Positions 4,449 to 43,914 of a DNA stretch of 43,914 nucleotides are shown here, piece by piece. Position 1 is the first letter of the stretch, and each line of letters starts with the position of its first letter. Under the pieces are notes generated by a model, which saw only the letters and a program-made list of their open reading frames with translations, did no database searches and was not told the origin of the DNA. Both the position numbers and the translations under genes were made by a program. This stretch comes from Candidatus Brockarchaeota archaeon (lineage in GTDB: Archaea; Thermoproteota; EX4484-205; JAAOZO01), in NCBI GenBank assembly GCA_017601145.1, contig JAFNIV010000014.1:1-43914 (forward strand). Direction: 5' to 3'.

Positions 4449-5578
4449 GTGAACTACCCCTCGCTATCGCAAGGGGCTTCCAGCATAGGCTGGTTATGGG
4501 CTGGTTCACAGACAGCCCCGTCTAAGGGCATGTAGCCCAAAGACCTCTCGAAACGCTTAGCTATGTTTATGGCTCCGTTTAGGTCTGCGTTGTATTCTCC
4601 GCAGTAGGGGCAAAGGAAGAGTCCTTGAGTTTTTCTTTTTCCTTCACGCCCACAGATATGGCATATGGTTGAGCTATAAGCTTCACTTATGGTAATTACT
4701 GGTATTCCTTCTAGCATGGCTTTATATTCAATCATTTTCGTTAGGCGAAAGTATGGCATGTTGCTGACTATTCTGTTTAAGCGTTTGCCTTTAACTTGTT
4801 TTCTAATTCCCTTGAGGTCTCCCAAGACAATGTAAGAGTTGGTTGCAAGGGCGAAGCTGACTATCCATTTGCTGACTCGATGAAGGATGGTATTAACCAC
4901 CCTTCTCTCCTTGCTTCCAACTCTCTTTACGACTTGGGTTAGACCTCTTTCTTGAAGCCTTCTGCGGAGCCATGCGTAATGGCGTCTAACTCCTCTTATC
5001 TCCTTGCCGAGAAATTGAGCTTTCATCACGGTTCCATTCTGCCAAAGCACCGCAGTGGCAGGGAACCGCTCACCCAAATCCACAGCAAGGATTGAGGAGC
5101 ATCTACGCACAGGTGGAGCATCAAACTCGAAGGTTAGCATAGCGATATAGCGGTCTTTCCTCTTAACTATTTTACTCTCGCAAAGTTTTCCTTGCGGGAA
5201 TTCTCTATGAGGTTTTACTGGAACTTTTATTCCGCCCCTAACACCATAGACAGGGATTTTTAGAAACCAGAAAGCCTTAGCTCTTTTAAGATTAATCAAA
5301 TCATTTCTAAGACTGAGAGGATATTCCTTTTGTTTTACTTTCTTGTAGTACCTAATAGCCTGCTGTTTGTTTGCTGAATACAACGGAACAGTTTTATCAC
5401 CACTTAAGAACCTTTGGAGGTTTGTGTATTCCCTATCAAGAATTTCCTTTTTCCTTCGAGTCAGCCCCACAATGCCCGCTTGGATAGTCAGCTTCATAGC
5501 AGGCTTTAACTAACTTTTTAGACATTTAAATCTTATCGCAATTCATCCCCGCCCTTTCAGACGGGGTCTTCTTGCGAG
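4449..5578 (-). mobile_element. IS200/IS605-type element carrying tnpB only; proposed right end GTAGTTCAC at 4449, left end next to TTTGAC near 5579-5584
   Basis: Intact tnpB; right end shared with repeats at 30959-30991 and 43746-43778; left-end motif GAAAG..GGGGATGAA...AAG.TTAAAT resembles the left end at about 30730-30766. Confidence 0.7.
4454..5497 (-). CDS. tnpB: RNA-guided endonuclease TnpB family protein (IS200/IS605 OrfB)
   Basis: RuvC-I AVDLGE (D140), RuvC-III YNADLNGAINIA (D305), zinc finger CHICG...CPYCG; RuvC-II position reads YIVLGDLKGI (G226). Confidence 0.93.
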   Translation of the reverse strand: MKLTIQAGIVGLTRRKKEILDREYTNLQRFLSGDKTVPLYSANKQQAIRYYKKVKQKEYPLSLRNDLINLKRAKAFWFLKIPVYGVRGGIKVPVKPHREFPQGKLCESKIVKRKDRYIAMLTFEFDAPPVRRCSSILAVDLGERFPATAVLWQNGTVMKAQFLGKEIRGVRRHYAWLRRRLQERGLTQVVKRVGSKERRVVNTILHRVSKWIVSFALATNSYIVLGDLKGIRKQVKGKRLNRIVSNMPYFRLTKMIEYKAMLEGIPVITISEAYSSTICHICGREGKRKTQGLFLCPYCGEYNADLNGAINIAKRFERSLGYMPLDGAVCEPAHNQPMLEAPCDSEG

Positions 5579-8101: not shown

Positions 8102-8339
8102 TTAAGTAGTTAGCCCTTCCCTCTCGATTATTTCATCGAGGGCTCTTTGGGGGAACCCTTCTCCCCGCATCTGAAGGTTCAATACTGCTACGATGTCTCT
8201 ATCTAAGATTATGTTACATTCTTCGCATTTCATTATCCTGCCCAGATAGGAAGCTAGCTTCCAGAACAGAGAGGACAGGTTTTAGAAGAGTTTTTAGGAT
8301 TAACATATTTTACAGGCAACCCGTTCCAGAAATAAAGTT
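8102..8339 (-). pseudogene. Degenerate 3' fragment of a different tnpB (IS200/IS605 OrfB)
   Basis: Minus strand reads KLYFWNGLPVKYVNPKNSSKTCPLCSG, then after a 1-nt frameshift KLASYLGRIMKCEECNIILDRDIVAVLNLQMRGEGFPQRALDEIIEREGLTT*, a classic TnpB zinc finger / RuvC-III C-terminus. Confidence 0.88.
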
Positions 8340-30645: not shown

Positions 30646-30754
30646 TTGCCAGTATCTTCTACTAACTTTTTTTCTCTTTTTTGTACACTTAATGTCTTTT
30701 TTAACTTTGATGGCGGGAAGTCTTCTTGCGAAAGCTGGGGGATGAAAGCCGAAA

Positions 30755-30764
30755 AGCTTATATT
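30755..30764 (+). promoter_or_regulatory. Putative archaeal TATA/box A (AGCTTATATT) for the ncRNA at 30786
   Basis: TATA-like sequence about 25-30 nt before the start of the GC-rich block. Confidence 0.5.
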
Positions 30765-30785
30765 TTTCTCATTATATCTATCATC

Positions 30786-30991
30786 GTCTGCTTGGCTGGA
30801 AGGGCTGGCAGACCTAGTAGGCATGGGACAGGCCGAAAGAGACGCCTGCTGAGGGCAAGACCTCCGTAACCCACCTTCCACACGGGTTCCTCGAAACGGC
30901 CTCACTTGCCGAGGCCTCCGCTGTGGGTGAGTGGAGATCGAGTCTGTCCGTGGAAGCAGGAAGCTCCTTGCAATAGCGAGGGGTAGTTCAC
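30786..30991 (+). ncRNA. Putative stand-alone omegaRNA-like structured ncRNA (scaffold; any guide would follow 30991)
   Basis: GC-rich island in AT-rich DNA; pairs AGTAGGC/GCCTGCT (30816-30822/30844-30850), GGACAG/CTGTCC (30826-30831/30944-30949), ACCCAC/GTGGGT (30869-30874/30923-30928), GGCCTC/GAGGCC (30898-30903/30911-30916), CTCCTTGC/GCGAGGGG (30964-30971/30976-30983); second copy at 43746+. Confidence 0.6.
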
Positions 30992-39286: not shown

Positions 39287-40435
39287 ATGTTCGAAGTAGT
39301 ACCTGAAAAGGGCTTTACGACATCTGAAAAAAGAGCATACGTCGTGCTAGAAGATGGAACAGTGCTTCAAGGTAAGCCCTTTGGTTACCCAAAGAATTCT
39401 GTTGGAGAAATAGTTTTCAATACTGGAATGGTTGGTTACACGGAAGCCTTAACTGATCCTTCTTACAAGGGACAAATACTTACTTTCACTTATCCTCTTG
39501 TTGGAAACTATGGAGTTCCAAGTTACATGAATAAGGATGAATTTGGAGTACCTAGATACTTTGAATCAGACTCAATAAAAGTTGAAGGAGTTGTAGTATA
39601 TGAACATTGCAAAAATCCTTCTCATTGGAGTTTAAATAAAAACTTAAACAGTTGGTTATACGAAGAAAAGATTCCTGGAGTATATGACATTGACACAAGA
39701 GAACTAACAAAGAAACTAAGAGTAAAAGGAGTTATGATGGGAGCTCTGATTTTTGATGAGAATGTTGAAAGAGCACTTAAAACAATAAAGAAAGCACAGC
39801 GCTATGAATCTAAAAACTACGTTGATGAAATTTCTGTAAAGGAACCAAAAACTTATGGAAAGGGTAAGAAAAAAGTTGTTATGGTAGATTTAGGAGTTAA
39901 GTACAACATAATAAGAAACTTAGCCTCTAGAGGATTTGAAGTAATAGTAGTACCTTATAACATTAGTTTTGATGAGATAATGAGTTTTTCTCCTGATGGA
40001 ATAGTAATAAGCAATGGTCCTGGGGATCCAAAGATACTAACTACCACTATAGACAATACGAGAAAAATGCTAGAAGAATATAAAAAGCCAATCTTAGGAA
40101 TATGCCTTGGACATCAGGTAATAGCTTTAGCGCTTGGAGCAGATACATACAAATTAAAATTTGGGCACAGAGGCCAAAATAAACCAGTAGTAGACCTTAC
40201 AAATGAAAAATGTTACATAACCAGTCAAAATCATGGTTATGCTGTAAAGGATGAAAATTTGCCGAACATTGGGTTGAAAGTATGGTTTAAGAACATAGAC
40301 GACAATACTATTGAAGGATTACTTCATGAAGAAAAACCAATAGTAACAACACAATTCCATCCAGAAGCATCACCAGGCCCTTATGATACTTCTTTCGTAT
40401 TTGATATTTTTTTGAAGCTTGTGGAGGGCTCTTAA
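39287..40435 (+). CDS. carA: Carbamoyl-phosphate synthase small subunit
   Basis: YVVLEDGTVLQGKPFG, FNTGMVGYTEALTDPSYKGQI, GICLGHQVIALALGA, TQFHPEASPGP. Confidence 0.96.
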   Translation: MFEVVPEKGFTTSEKRAYVVLEDGTVLQGKPFGYPKNSVGEIVFNTGMVGYTEALTDPSYKGQILTFTYPLVGNYGVPSYMNKDEFGVPRYFESDSIKVEGVVVYEHCKNPSHWSLNKNLNSWLYEEKIPGVYDIDTRELTKKLRVKGVMMGALIFDENVERALKTIKKAQRYESKNYVDEISVKEPKTYGKGKKKVVMVDLGVKYNIIRNLASRGFEVIVVPYNISFDEIMSFSPDGIVISNGPGDPKILTTTIDNTRKMLEEYKKPILGICLGHQVIALALGADTYKLKFGHRGQNKPVVDLTNEKCYITSQNHGYAVKDENLPNIGLKVWFKNIDDNTIEGLLHEEKPIVTTQFHPEASPGPYDTSFVFDIFLKLVEGS

Positions 40436-40436
40436 T

Positions 40437-43400
40437 ATGCCAAAGTTCGAGTGGATAAAGAAAGTATTAGTGATTGGGTCTGGACCCATTCAGATATCAA
40501 TGGCAGGAGAGTTTGATTACTCAGGAACGCAAGCTCTTAAAGCACTAAAAGAAGAAGGAATAAAGACGATTCTTGTTAATTCAAACGTTGCAACAATACA
40601 AACAGATCCAAAGATGGCAGATAGCGTATACTTGTTGCCCGCAACTCCAGAATTTTTAGAAGAAATTATAAGAAAAGAAAATCCAGATGGAATAATGTTA
40701 GGATTTGGAGGACAAACTGCACTAAATGCAGGATATGAACTTTACAAGAGAGGAATTCTAAAAAAATATGGAGTGAAAGTACTAGGCACTTCTGTTGAAA
40801 GTATAAACATAACATCTGATAGAGAACTTTTTATGCAAACTATGAAAGAAAATGGCCTACCAGTTTTACCTAGTAAAGCAGCAAGAAGTGTTGAAGAAGC
40901 TCTTAAGATAGCTGAAAAAATAGGGTATCCAGTAATAGTCAGAGTTGCCTATAACTTAGGTGGAAGGGGAGGGGGTGTTGCTTACAATCAGCTTGAACTT
41001 GAAGAAATAGTAAGTAGAGGAATTGCAAACAGCTACATAGGGCAAGTTTTAGTTGAAGAGTACATTGGGGACTGGAAACAAATAGAATATGAAGTTGTCA
41101 GAGACTACAATGACAACTGTATTACCGTCTGTAACATGGAAAATATGCTTGGTATGAGAGTTCACACAGGAGATAACATAGTCGTTTCGCCTTCTCAAAC
41201 TTTAAACAACAAAGAGTACCATATGCTAAGAGAAGCCTCAATAAAAGCTACTAGAGCTAGTAAGGTAGTTGGAGAATGCAATGTTCAGCTAGCTTTGGAT
41301 AAGAATTCAGAAAGATACTATATAATAGAAATAAACCCAAGACTTTCGAGGTCTTCAGCTCTCGCATCAAAAGCTACAGGCTATCCTTTAGCTTACATAG
41401 CTGCTAAACTTGCCATAGGATATACTCTTCCAGAAATACTAAATAAAGTAACTAATATAACTTCTTCATTCTTTGAACCTGCTTTAGATTATGTTGTTGT
41501 TAAAATACCAAGATGGGATCTTTCAAAGTTTGGCTTTGTAGATAGAAGACTGAGAACTCAAATGAAGTCTGTTGGAGAGGTTATGGGTATAGGGAGGAAC
41601 TTTGAAGAAGCTCTTCAAAAAGCAATTAGGATGCTAGACATTGGATTAGATGGTCTTACAGCAGAGTTAGAAGGGGAAAACGTTGAAGAAATTGAAAACG
41701 CTCTTGCTAATCCAACTGATGAGATACTTCTAACAATTGTAAAAGCAATAAAACTTGGAATAAGTGTTGAAAAGATAAGCAAACTAACTTGGATAGATGA
41801 GTGGTTTATCTGGAAAATAAAAAACATTGTAGACATGGAGCTTAAAATTAAGGAAATAAGAGAACTTGATGATGAAGATGAAGAAAAGATTAGAGAGGCA
41901 AAGAAGCTTGGCTTTTCCGATAGTCAAATTTCAAGGTTAATTAAAGTTAGTGAAGAAAAAGTAAGAGCCTATAGGAAGAAGCATAATATAATTCCAGTAG
42001 TGAAACAAATAGATACACTAGCTGCAGAATGGCCTGCAAAGACAAACTACCTTTACTTAACATATGGTGGAGAAAAAGATGATATAAGCTTCGTAAATGA
42101 AAATAAGAAGAAAGTTGTTGTCCTTGGAGCAGGAACTTATAGAATAGGAAGCTCTGTTGAGTTTGACTGGAGCACTATGAACTTAGTTTGGTCGTTGAAG
42201 AAGTTTGGTATGGATGAAGTAATAGTAGTAAACTGCAACCCAGAAACAGTATCAACAGACTACGACATGAGTGACAAGCTTTACTTTGAAGAACTGACTT
42301 TAGAAAGAATTTATGATATATATGAAAAAGAAAATCCGTTGGGAGTTATTACATGTGTTGGTGGACAAACCGCCAATAACCTAGCACCAAAATTATCTAA
42401 GGTTGGAGTAAAAATACTTGGTACAGAAGGTGAAAACATTGATAGGGCTGAAGATAGAGCAAAGTTTAGTTCGTTACTGGATGAACTTGGCATCCCTCAA
42501 CCAAAATGGGCAAAGTTTAGCTCAATAGAGGAAGCTAAAAGATTTGCAGAAAGTATAGGGTACCCAGTAATAGTTAGGCCTTCATACGTACTTGGAGGAG
42601 CAGTGATGAAGGTTGCTTGGAACAATAAACAACTAGAAGAGTTCTTGCTTAGAGCTACCAAGGTTTCGAAAGAACATCCAGTAACAGTTAGTAAATTTAT
42701 TACTGAAGCTATGGAAGTTGAAGTTGATGGAGTTTCTGATGGAACGAACGTTATGATAGGTGCAATAATTGAACATCTAGAATATGCAGGAATACATTCT
42801 GGCGATGCAACAATGATAATTCCGCCACAAAGGCTTACAAGTCATCATGTTGAAACTATAAAAAGTTATAGCAAAAAAATAGCAAGGGCTCTTAAAATTA
42901 TTGGACCTTTTAACATCCAGTACTTAGTTAAAGGAAATGAAGTCAGTGTAATTGAATGCAACTTGAGAGCAAGTAGATCTATGCCATTCGTTTCAAAGGT
43001 AAAGGGAATAAATCTTATGGAATATGCTGCAAGGGCTTTACTAGGACTAGGGATCGAAGAAATAGATGAAATTAATGTTCCGTATGTGGGAGTTAAAGTT
43101 CCACAGTTTTCTTTCATGCAAGTTGATGGTGCAGACCCAATCCTAGGAGTTGAAATGAAGTCAACTGGAGAAGCAGCATGTTTGGGCGACACCTTTCACG
43201 ATGCATTGATTAAAGCTACTGTTGCTGTTGGATTAAGGATACCGACACTTAATTCAAACAATAAAAAGGTCTTTGTTAGTGCAGGAACAGAAAGAGAAAA
43301 AATGGAAATTGAGCCTGTAGTTAGAAACCTATTGAAGTTAGGCTATGAAGTTTATTGCACTTCAGGAACAGGAAGTTATCTTATGGAAAGAGGGTTAAAC

Positions 43401-43739
43401 GTTAAGATACTTCATAAGATTAGCGAAAAAATAGAGCCAAATGTTTTGACTTATATTGTGAATAGAAACTTGGATTTAATAGTTAACATACCAGAATCTA
43501 AAGACATTAACGAATACGAGTTAATAATGAAAGATGAGTACACTATAAGAAGAAAAGCTGTTGAGATGGGAATTCCAGTAATTACAGTATCTAAAATCCT
43601 TGAAGAACTAATAAATGGAATTCTTAACGTAGAAAAGCCATCTGTAAGATCGCTACAAGAGTACTACAGCATAAAAGAAGAATACTATGAAAAACTTGTT
43701 CAGAAAAATAAAGAAAAAGATAAAAGTATTAGTTTTTAG
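40437..43739 (+). CDS. carB: Carbamoyl-phosphate synthase large subunit (start set at ATG 40437; ORF track begins at TTG 40419)
   Basis: VLVIGSGPIQISMAGEFDYSGTQA, two ATP-grasp halves, VLGAGTYRIGSSVEFDW, C-terminal MGS-like domain. Confidence 0.96.
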   Translation: MPKFEWIKKVLVIGSGPIQISMAGEFDYSGTQALKALKEEGIKTILVNSNVATIQTDPKMADSVYLLPATPEFLEEIIRKENPDGIMLGFGGQTALNAGYELYKRGILKKYGVKVLGTSVESINITSDRELFMQTMKENGLPVLPSKAARSVEEALKIAEKIGYPVIVRVAYNLGGRGGGVAYNQLELEEIVSRGIANSYIGQVLVEEYIGDWKQIEYEVVRDYNDNCITVCNMENMLGMRVHTGDNIVVSPSQTLNNKEYHMLREASIKATRASKVVGECNVQLALDKNSERYYIIEINPRLSRSSALASKATGYPLAYIAAKLAIGYTLPEILNKVTNITSSFFEPALDYVVVKIPRWDLSKFGFVDRRLRTQMKSVGEVMGIGRNFEEALQKAIRMLDIGLDGLTAELEGENVEEIENALANPTDEILLTIVKAIKLGISVEKISKLTWIDEWFIWKIKNIVDMELKIKEIRELDDEDEEKIREAKKLGFSDSQISRLIKVSEEKVRAYRKKHNIIPVVKQIDTLAAEWPAKTNYLYLTYGGEKDDISFVNENKKKVVVLGAGTYRIGSSVEFDWSTMNLVWSLKKFGMDEVIVVNCNPETVSTDYDMSDKLYFEELTLERIYDIYEKENPLGVITCVGGQTANNLAPKLSKVGVKILGTEGENIDRAEDRAKFSSLLDELGIPQPKWAKFSSIEEAKRFAESIGYPVIVRPSYVLGGAVMKVAWNNKQLEEFLLRATKVSKEHPVTVSKFITEAMEVEVDGVSDGTNVMIGAIIEHLEYAGIHSGDATMIIPPQRLTSHHVETIKSYSKKIARALKIIGPFNIQYLVKGNEVSVIECNLRASRSMPFVSKVKGINLMEYAARALLGLGIEEIDEINVPYVGVKVPQFSFMQVDGADPILGVEMKSTGEAACLGDTFHDALIKATVAVGLRIPTLNSNNKKVFVSAGTEREKMEIEPVVRNLLKLGYEVYCTSGTGSYLMERGLNVKILHKISEKIEPNVLTYIVNRNLDLIVNIPESKDINEYELIMKDEYTIRRKAVEMGIPVITVSKILEELINGILNVEKPSVRSLQEYYSIKEEYYEKLVQKNKEKDKSISF

Positions 43740-43745
43740 GCTTGC

Positions 43746-43914
43746 GTGAACTACCCCTCGCTATCGCAAGGAGCTTCCTGCTTCCATGGACAGACTCGCT
43801 CTCCACTCACCCACAGCGGAGGCCTCGGCAAGTGAGACCGTTTCGAGGAACCCGTGTGGAAGGTGGGTTACGGAGGTCTTGCCCTCAGCAGGCGTCTCTT
43901 TCGGCCTGTCCCAT
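43746..43914 (-). ncRNA. Second copy of the tnpB-less, omegaRNA-like element, truncated by the window end
   Basis: By eye about 4 substitutions over 169 nt versus the reverse complement of 30823-30991; same right end GTAGTTCAC. Confidence 0.65.

Follow-up and report, generated by a model that had tools for sequence, protein, structure and literature searches.

A transposase-free IS200/IS605-type element of a Brockarchaeota genome is likely a mobile omega-RNA gene

The stretch of Candidatus Brockarchaeota DNA analyzed here (the window, 43,914 nt) ends in 169 nt (43746..43914, minus strand) that comprise the RNA core and right end of a non-autonomous IS200/IS605-type element of about 292 bp, truncated by the contig end. 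A complete 292-bp copy, from TTTAA target to GTTCAC end, is located at 30700..30991 on the plus strand. Sequence comparisons leave almost no doubt that the element belongs among the transposase-free derivatives of IS200/IS605 (the PATE or SMN1 kind) and would be mobilized in trans. The best explanation for the observations as a whole, and a reasonably likely one, is that it is a mobile omega-RNA gene that is moved by TnpA in trans and is probably loaded into TnpB in trans. In other words, seemingly empty elements probably borrow the enzymes of another element both to move and to survive.

A total of 40 BLAST matches to the element (E <= 1.5e-39) were recovered from the 1.62-Mb genome, many of them broken at contig ends. 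This is far beyond chance. The copy beside carB is a recent duplicate, one of the two options that the initial annotation had given. The matches represent at least 34 insertions (29 distinct right-end flanks and five contig-end fragments), and complete copies span 245-299 bp. Copies start with TTTAACTTT..GGCGGGAAG, followed by a GC-rich hairpin and GATGAAAGCCGA, and finish with a hairpin and GTAGTTCAC. In the complete window copy (plus strand), the left end carries the TTTAA target or TAM (30700..30704), a sequence present at 29 of 29 left junctions examined in the genome and preceded by variable sequence. The left-end hairpin region follows (GCGGGAAG-...-GATGAAAGCCGA, 30713..30753); the 56-nt left end of an autonomous element on contig C1 is 94.6% identical to this copy. 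Downstream are a BRE/TATA-like promoter motif (GAAAA-g-CTTATATT, 30751..30764, score 16.1) and an omega-RNA-like structured region with helices P0-P5 (30813..30991), the latter being the window copy that was entered in the fold alignment (A5). On the minus strand of the carB copy, the right-end terminal hairpin P5 (CTCCTTGC-GATA-GCGAGGGG) lies at 43754..43773 and the right terminus, GTAGTTCAC, at 43746..43754. This terminus is constant in complete copies and is the expected guide junction; what follows GTTCAC is a different flank in every copy, such that each right-end RNA is succeeded by a variable putative guide. The loop of the left hairpin (30720-30742, and in other copies) occurs in two orientations, TGCGAAAGCT and AGCTTTCGCA, and in a subfamily comprising L006, L008, and L009 the spacer after the left hairpin is replaced by a palindrome; together these features suggest hairpin template switching.

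The copy beside carB stops at 43914 because the contig ends there. Its left end, which the initial annotation proposed to seek beyond this position, was found through synteny with a genome of the same genus (G001): contig C3 (L096) of the present genome has the left 206 nt of an element at its beginning. In G001, the gene next after carB is convergent with it and resembles an ABC-type substrate-binding protein (an assessment based solely on the translation), and the same gene is found at the start of C3. The joined flanks of the carB copy and C3 align across the junction with G001, where the site is empty. As had been annotated, the two window copies (43746-43914, minus strand, and 30823-30991, plus strand) differ by exactly four substitutions. 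Numbered along the RNA (1 = A of ATGGGAC; window position = 43915 - n), these are 78 C>T, 116 T>G, 128 G>A, and 150 A>G, from the 30.8-kb copy to the carB copy. The terminal-hairpin loop contains position 150, and neither 116 nor 128 is paired in the structure evaluated here, both as described earlier. The remaining change, read as conversion of a C-G to a U-G wobble, does fall in a helix (P4, position 78) but may not be real: the 83-nt overlap between C3 and the carB contig is identical except at this position, where C3 has C and the carB contig has T, and the substitution may thus be an assembly artifact, the contig ending within a repeat. A distance to carB that had been given as 5 bp is 6 nt, since carB ends at 43739.

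No TnpA or TnpB gene is present inside the element, whose copies are 245-299 bp in length. The genome encodes a single tnpA, carried by the 1,587-bp tnpA+tnpB element on contig C1; the left 56 nt of that element are identical to the family consensus, and no difference separates its final 39 nt from the right end of the carB copy. Similarly, a 1.73-kb tnpA+tnpB element in genome G255 resembles the standalone copies at its left end (96% over 82 nt) and right end (93% over 60 nt). The near-terminal palindromes of the standalone element are therefore those of autonomous IS605-type elements in both genomes. Insertion takes place on the 3' side of the TTTAA target, and empty sites in G001, at the carB copy and at L024, revealed no target duplication; transposition of the element family is well supported by these sequence comparisons. 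PATEs of Haloquadratum are likewise transposase-free and multicopy, with near-terminal palindromes, IS605-type ends, and no target duplication (PMC3119063). Unlike PATEs, which are described as fused ends, the element considered here has a conserved structured RNA and a promoter-like motif between its ends. A second relevant system is SMN1, a Sulfolobus mobile non-inverted-repeat element of about 320 bp that needs the transposase of ISC1733, an IS200/IS605 element (PMC3718332). The present element is also transposase-free, lacks terminal inverted repeats, and is of similar length, and homologs of about 313-328 nt occur in Sulfolobales-like genomes, which carry a 1.73-kb tnpA+tnpB element of this type, and in S. 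islandicus plasmids; this likeness rests on size, host, and an ISC1733-like partner element rather than on sequence, and the copies described here (245-299 bp) derive from a different lineage of the phylum. No literature linking SMN1 or PATEs to omega-RNA was found in a search that covered subscription papers and preprints in part.

The initial annotation had proposed a guide-RNA anatomy in which the guide starts directly after GUUCAC, and this proposal is upheld by homology of the scaffold to tnpB-linked omega-RNAs. A covariance model built from standalone copies only (R1) also recognizes tnpB 3' ends, both in the present genome and in others. In autonomous elements, the fold runs P0-P1-P2-simple hairpin-P5-GTTCAC, and the scaffold common to both kinds of RNA is P0-P1-P2-P5-GTTCAC, with a larger apical domain in the standalone form. 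Like the omega-RNA (reRNA) of TnpB, the standalone RNA overlaps the right end of its element, ends where the guide starts, and shares P0, P1, P2, and the terminal hairpin; it differs in having no tnpB in cis, its own promoter-like motif, and an extra conserved apical domain. Because tnpB is missing in cis, the RNA is best termed omega-RNA-like rather than a classical cis omega-RNA. The division between the two forms is sharp: a TnpB match accompanies 26 of 28 loci with short R1 matches (about 109-134 nt), whereas none of 62 locus records with long matches (about 160-200 nt; some records overlap) has in-element TnpB coding beyond the tail encoded by the right end. One apparent tnpB-linked long form (G199:C2) was rejected, as an unrelated tnpB element is nested inside the RNA. 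Two simpler origins were also set aside. The RNA is not an unrelated structural RNA carried as cargo, since its core aligns with the 3' end of tnpB, and a recent deletion derivative of a resident tnpB element is too simple an account, given that the long form occurs phylum-wide without tnpB.

The RNA, of about 170 nt, folds into helices P0-P5, with P3 and P4 forming the additional apical domain of the standalone form, and it is almost certainly a genuine structured RNA. The fold was evaluated on an alignment of 19 long-form RNAs from this genome, 15 other genomes of the phylum, one further archaeal assembly, a plasmid, and a virus. In this alignment, 92.7% of cells are paired versus 40-52% for slid structures, although these sequences were known when the structure was selected, and the slid control by itself would flatter the fold. 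Cells with changes on both sides of a pair number 118, as compared to 43 +/- 5 after shuffling; compensatory change is found in 23 of 39 pairs, including columns of P5 across lineages, and 0 of 500 shuffles attained any of five observed values. The 5' GAA present in 17 of the 19 RNAs could pair with the UUC that precedes the guide, a potential pairing that hardly varies. An initial structural model that paired ATGGGACAG with CUGUCC was rejected in favor of P1 and P2, the helices that find support in tnpB-linked RNAs and in distant standalone ones. Searches of Rfam with the window, the element, and seven relatives returned weak matches only and no family above the gathering score, and the apical domain thus represents a conserved RNA structure absent from Rfam. 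Subfamilies in genomes G201 and G328 (L218-L252) with shortened P3/P4 have nonetheless multiplied, indicating that this domain is partly dispensable for spread. In Sulfolobales-like copies (L109-L114, L121, L131, and L132) and their autonomous partners, an additional hairpin is present between P1 and the terminal hairpin.

The few differences between the two window copies had been taken as a sign that substitutions avoid breaking helices and, with that, of selection for RNA structure. Selection on structure is strongly indicated between lineages by the excess of double changes, but the within-genome signal is weak: 7 of 11 changes at paired sites keep the pair (null 4.7, p = 0.016), and pair-breaking substitutions number 4 versus 7.9 expected (p = 0.047). 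In G201, a genome with 25 matches and no tnpA, paired sites change as often as unpaired sites. The combination of a strong signal between lineages, a weak one within this genome, and none in G201 suggests that the unit under selection is the lineage that continues to transpose rather than each copy, and the drift in G201 without tnpA suggests that single copies decay. The same drift, with pairs not preserved, would also be expected if the element were only a MITE or PATE mobilized by TnpA, its fold acting in single-stranded DNA or being inherited from the 3' end of tnpB, with no guide function. Several other observations are compatible with this account: IS200/IS605 transposition uses hairpins in single-stranded DNA, and the RNA and DNA strands share their sequence; PATEs are known as derivatives that consist of ends only (PMC3119063; PMC7290912); and an open frame in the core of the copies in this genome still resembles the C-terminal tail of TnpB. 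Such an account is nevertheless rather unlikely. First, P0-P4 are located away from the end hairpins used by TnpA, yet show strong compensatory change. Second, G-U pairs are frequent, and U-G is the commonest pair at one position of P1. Third, the GTTCAC end and the scaffold homology are traits of omega-RNA, and the promoter-like motif has been retained.

In 12 of 19 elements, the left hairpin is directly followed by a BRE/TATA-like motif whose score exceeds the 90th percentile of null windows (11.6; median 7.8), and the autonomous element has a similar motif in the same place, before tnpA. The standalone RNA could therefore plausibly be transcribed from the element itself, and it is judged quite likely to be a transcribed omega-RNA. 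In IS200/IS605 transposition, the donor copy is excised. In the proposed cycle, TnpA from the autonomous copy would move the element as single-stranded DNA; a transcript that reads past the right end into the flank would yield an omega-RNA with a guide that matches the donor site; and a resident TnpB, loaded in trans, would cut the vacated donor site, with repair restoring the copy. Loading of a resident TnpB in trans is inferred from the promoter-like motif, from the ISDra2 pseudoknot, in which the nucleotides that precede the guide pair with a 5' GAA (PMC10097598) located at a place where 17 of the 19 RNAs also have GAA, and from the activity of a Sulfolobus TnpB with a TTTAA TAM as an RNA-guided nuclease (PMC10640517). 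On balance, use of the standalone RNA by TnpB in trans is judged to have slightly more in its favor than against it. Against cross-loading, the nearest resident TnpB, that of the autonomous element (L049 1345-2472, minus strand; also L044, L045, and L193), lacks the four-cysteine zinc finger (NPRGTSEGLGYENPYRDWISA) and its omega-RNA lacks the extended apical domain. This TnpB keeps the likely catalytic residues D190, E274, and D334, and the zinc-finger gap is also found in G371. Its E-to-D spacing presumably resembles the one reported for SisTnpB1 (D187, E271, D335).

Non-autonomous IS605 derivatives have so far been read as DNA relics that need TnpA alone. If their RNAs are working omega-RNAs, such elements would parasitize the RNA-guided nuclease too, which would account for the persistence and multiplication of 300-bp elements despite excision of the donor, and dozens of guides would program one TnpB in trans.

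The element is widespread but scattered. Matches to R1, with short forms included, were detected in 45 of 398 genomes of the phylum sample, and the long-form RNA without tnpB was found in 15 more genomes of the phylum, in a Sulfolobus plasmid, and in viruses. At E <= 1e-8, a model of the long form (R2) yielded 47 matches in G328, 41 in the present genome (pieces included), 25 in G201, 17 in G199, 16 in G144, 13 in G255, 10 each in G276 and G392, and 9 in G061, counts that can include a few tnpB-linked short forms. In G035, a genome that is 98% complete, the long-form RNA is present (L108) with no match to tnpB or tnpA. The element is also carried by S. islandicus plasmids, the Acidianus tailed spindle virus, and viral contigs, indicating that it travels between hosts. 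These Sulfolobus relatives, together with a Nitrososphaeria assembly (L077), suggest that the sampled phylum is Thermoproteota. Core sequence blocks are highly conserved across the phylum, as might be expected of a domesticated multicopy small RNA kept by the host for a cellular role. Such a role is scarcely credible, however, given the recent amplification in this genome (37 near-identical copies or contig-end fragments, with no long form found in the same-genus genome G001), the presence in plasmids and viruses, and the scattered distribution, all of which fit a mobile element. Extending the interpretation as a mobile omega-RNA gene to the phylum as a whole, it can be suggested tentatively, and with somewhat less than even confidence, that these elements form a long-lived lineage of protein-free mobile omega-RNA genes. 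Each such gene would be equipped with a promoter of its own and an apical domain peculiar to this lineage and would depend in trans on TnpA to move and on TnpB to survive excision. Together, the copies would supply a genome with tens of natural guides at dispersed sites (at least 34 in the present genome; G328 has 47 matches).

It had further been suggested that a guide beyond GUUCAC would be antisense to the 3' end of carB. The carB gene (carbamoyl-phosphate synthase large subunit; TIGR01369, 1448 bits; 40419..43739, plus strand) is convergent with the element, and the predicted 20-nt guide, GCAAGCCTAAAAACTAATAC (43726..43745, minus strand; positioned by analogy with omega-RNAs), comprises the 6-nt spacer and the last 14 nt of carB. 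The overlap itself thus holds, but it is most simply a by-product of the landing site, because the 3' flank differs in each copy and G001 has no element after its carB. Regulation of carB from its 3' end by antisense RNA from this copy, while compatible with the convergent arrangement and the 14-nt overlap, is very improbable for the same reasons and because most copies are intergenic, with no constant orientation to their neighbors.

Other tnpB genes are abundant. In this genome there are 27 tnpB matches and one tnpA, and other genomes of the phylum have up to 63 tnpB and from zero to six tnpA matches. Within the window, a tnpB with a zinc finger (4454..5497, minus strand) belongs to a separate element with no visible tnpA; the right end of that element (4449-4481) shares 97% identity with that of the carB copy over 33 nt, while its left end is different. 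A decayed tnpB remnant of another family is located at 8174-8328 (minus strand) and is followed by sequence like the right end of that family (CCCAGAAC).
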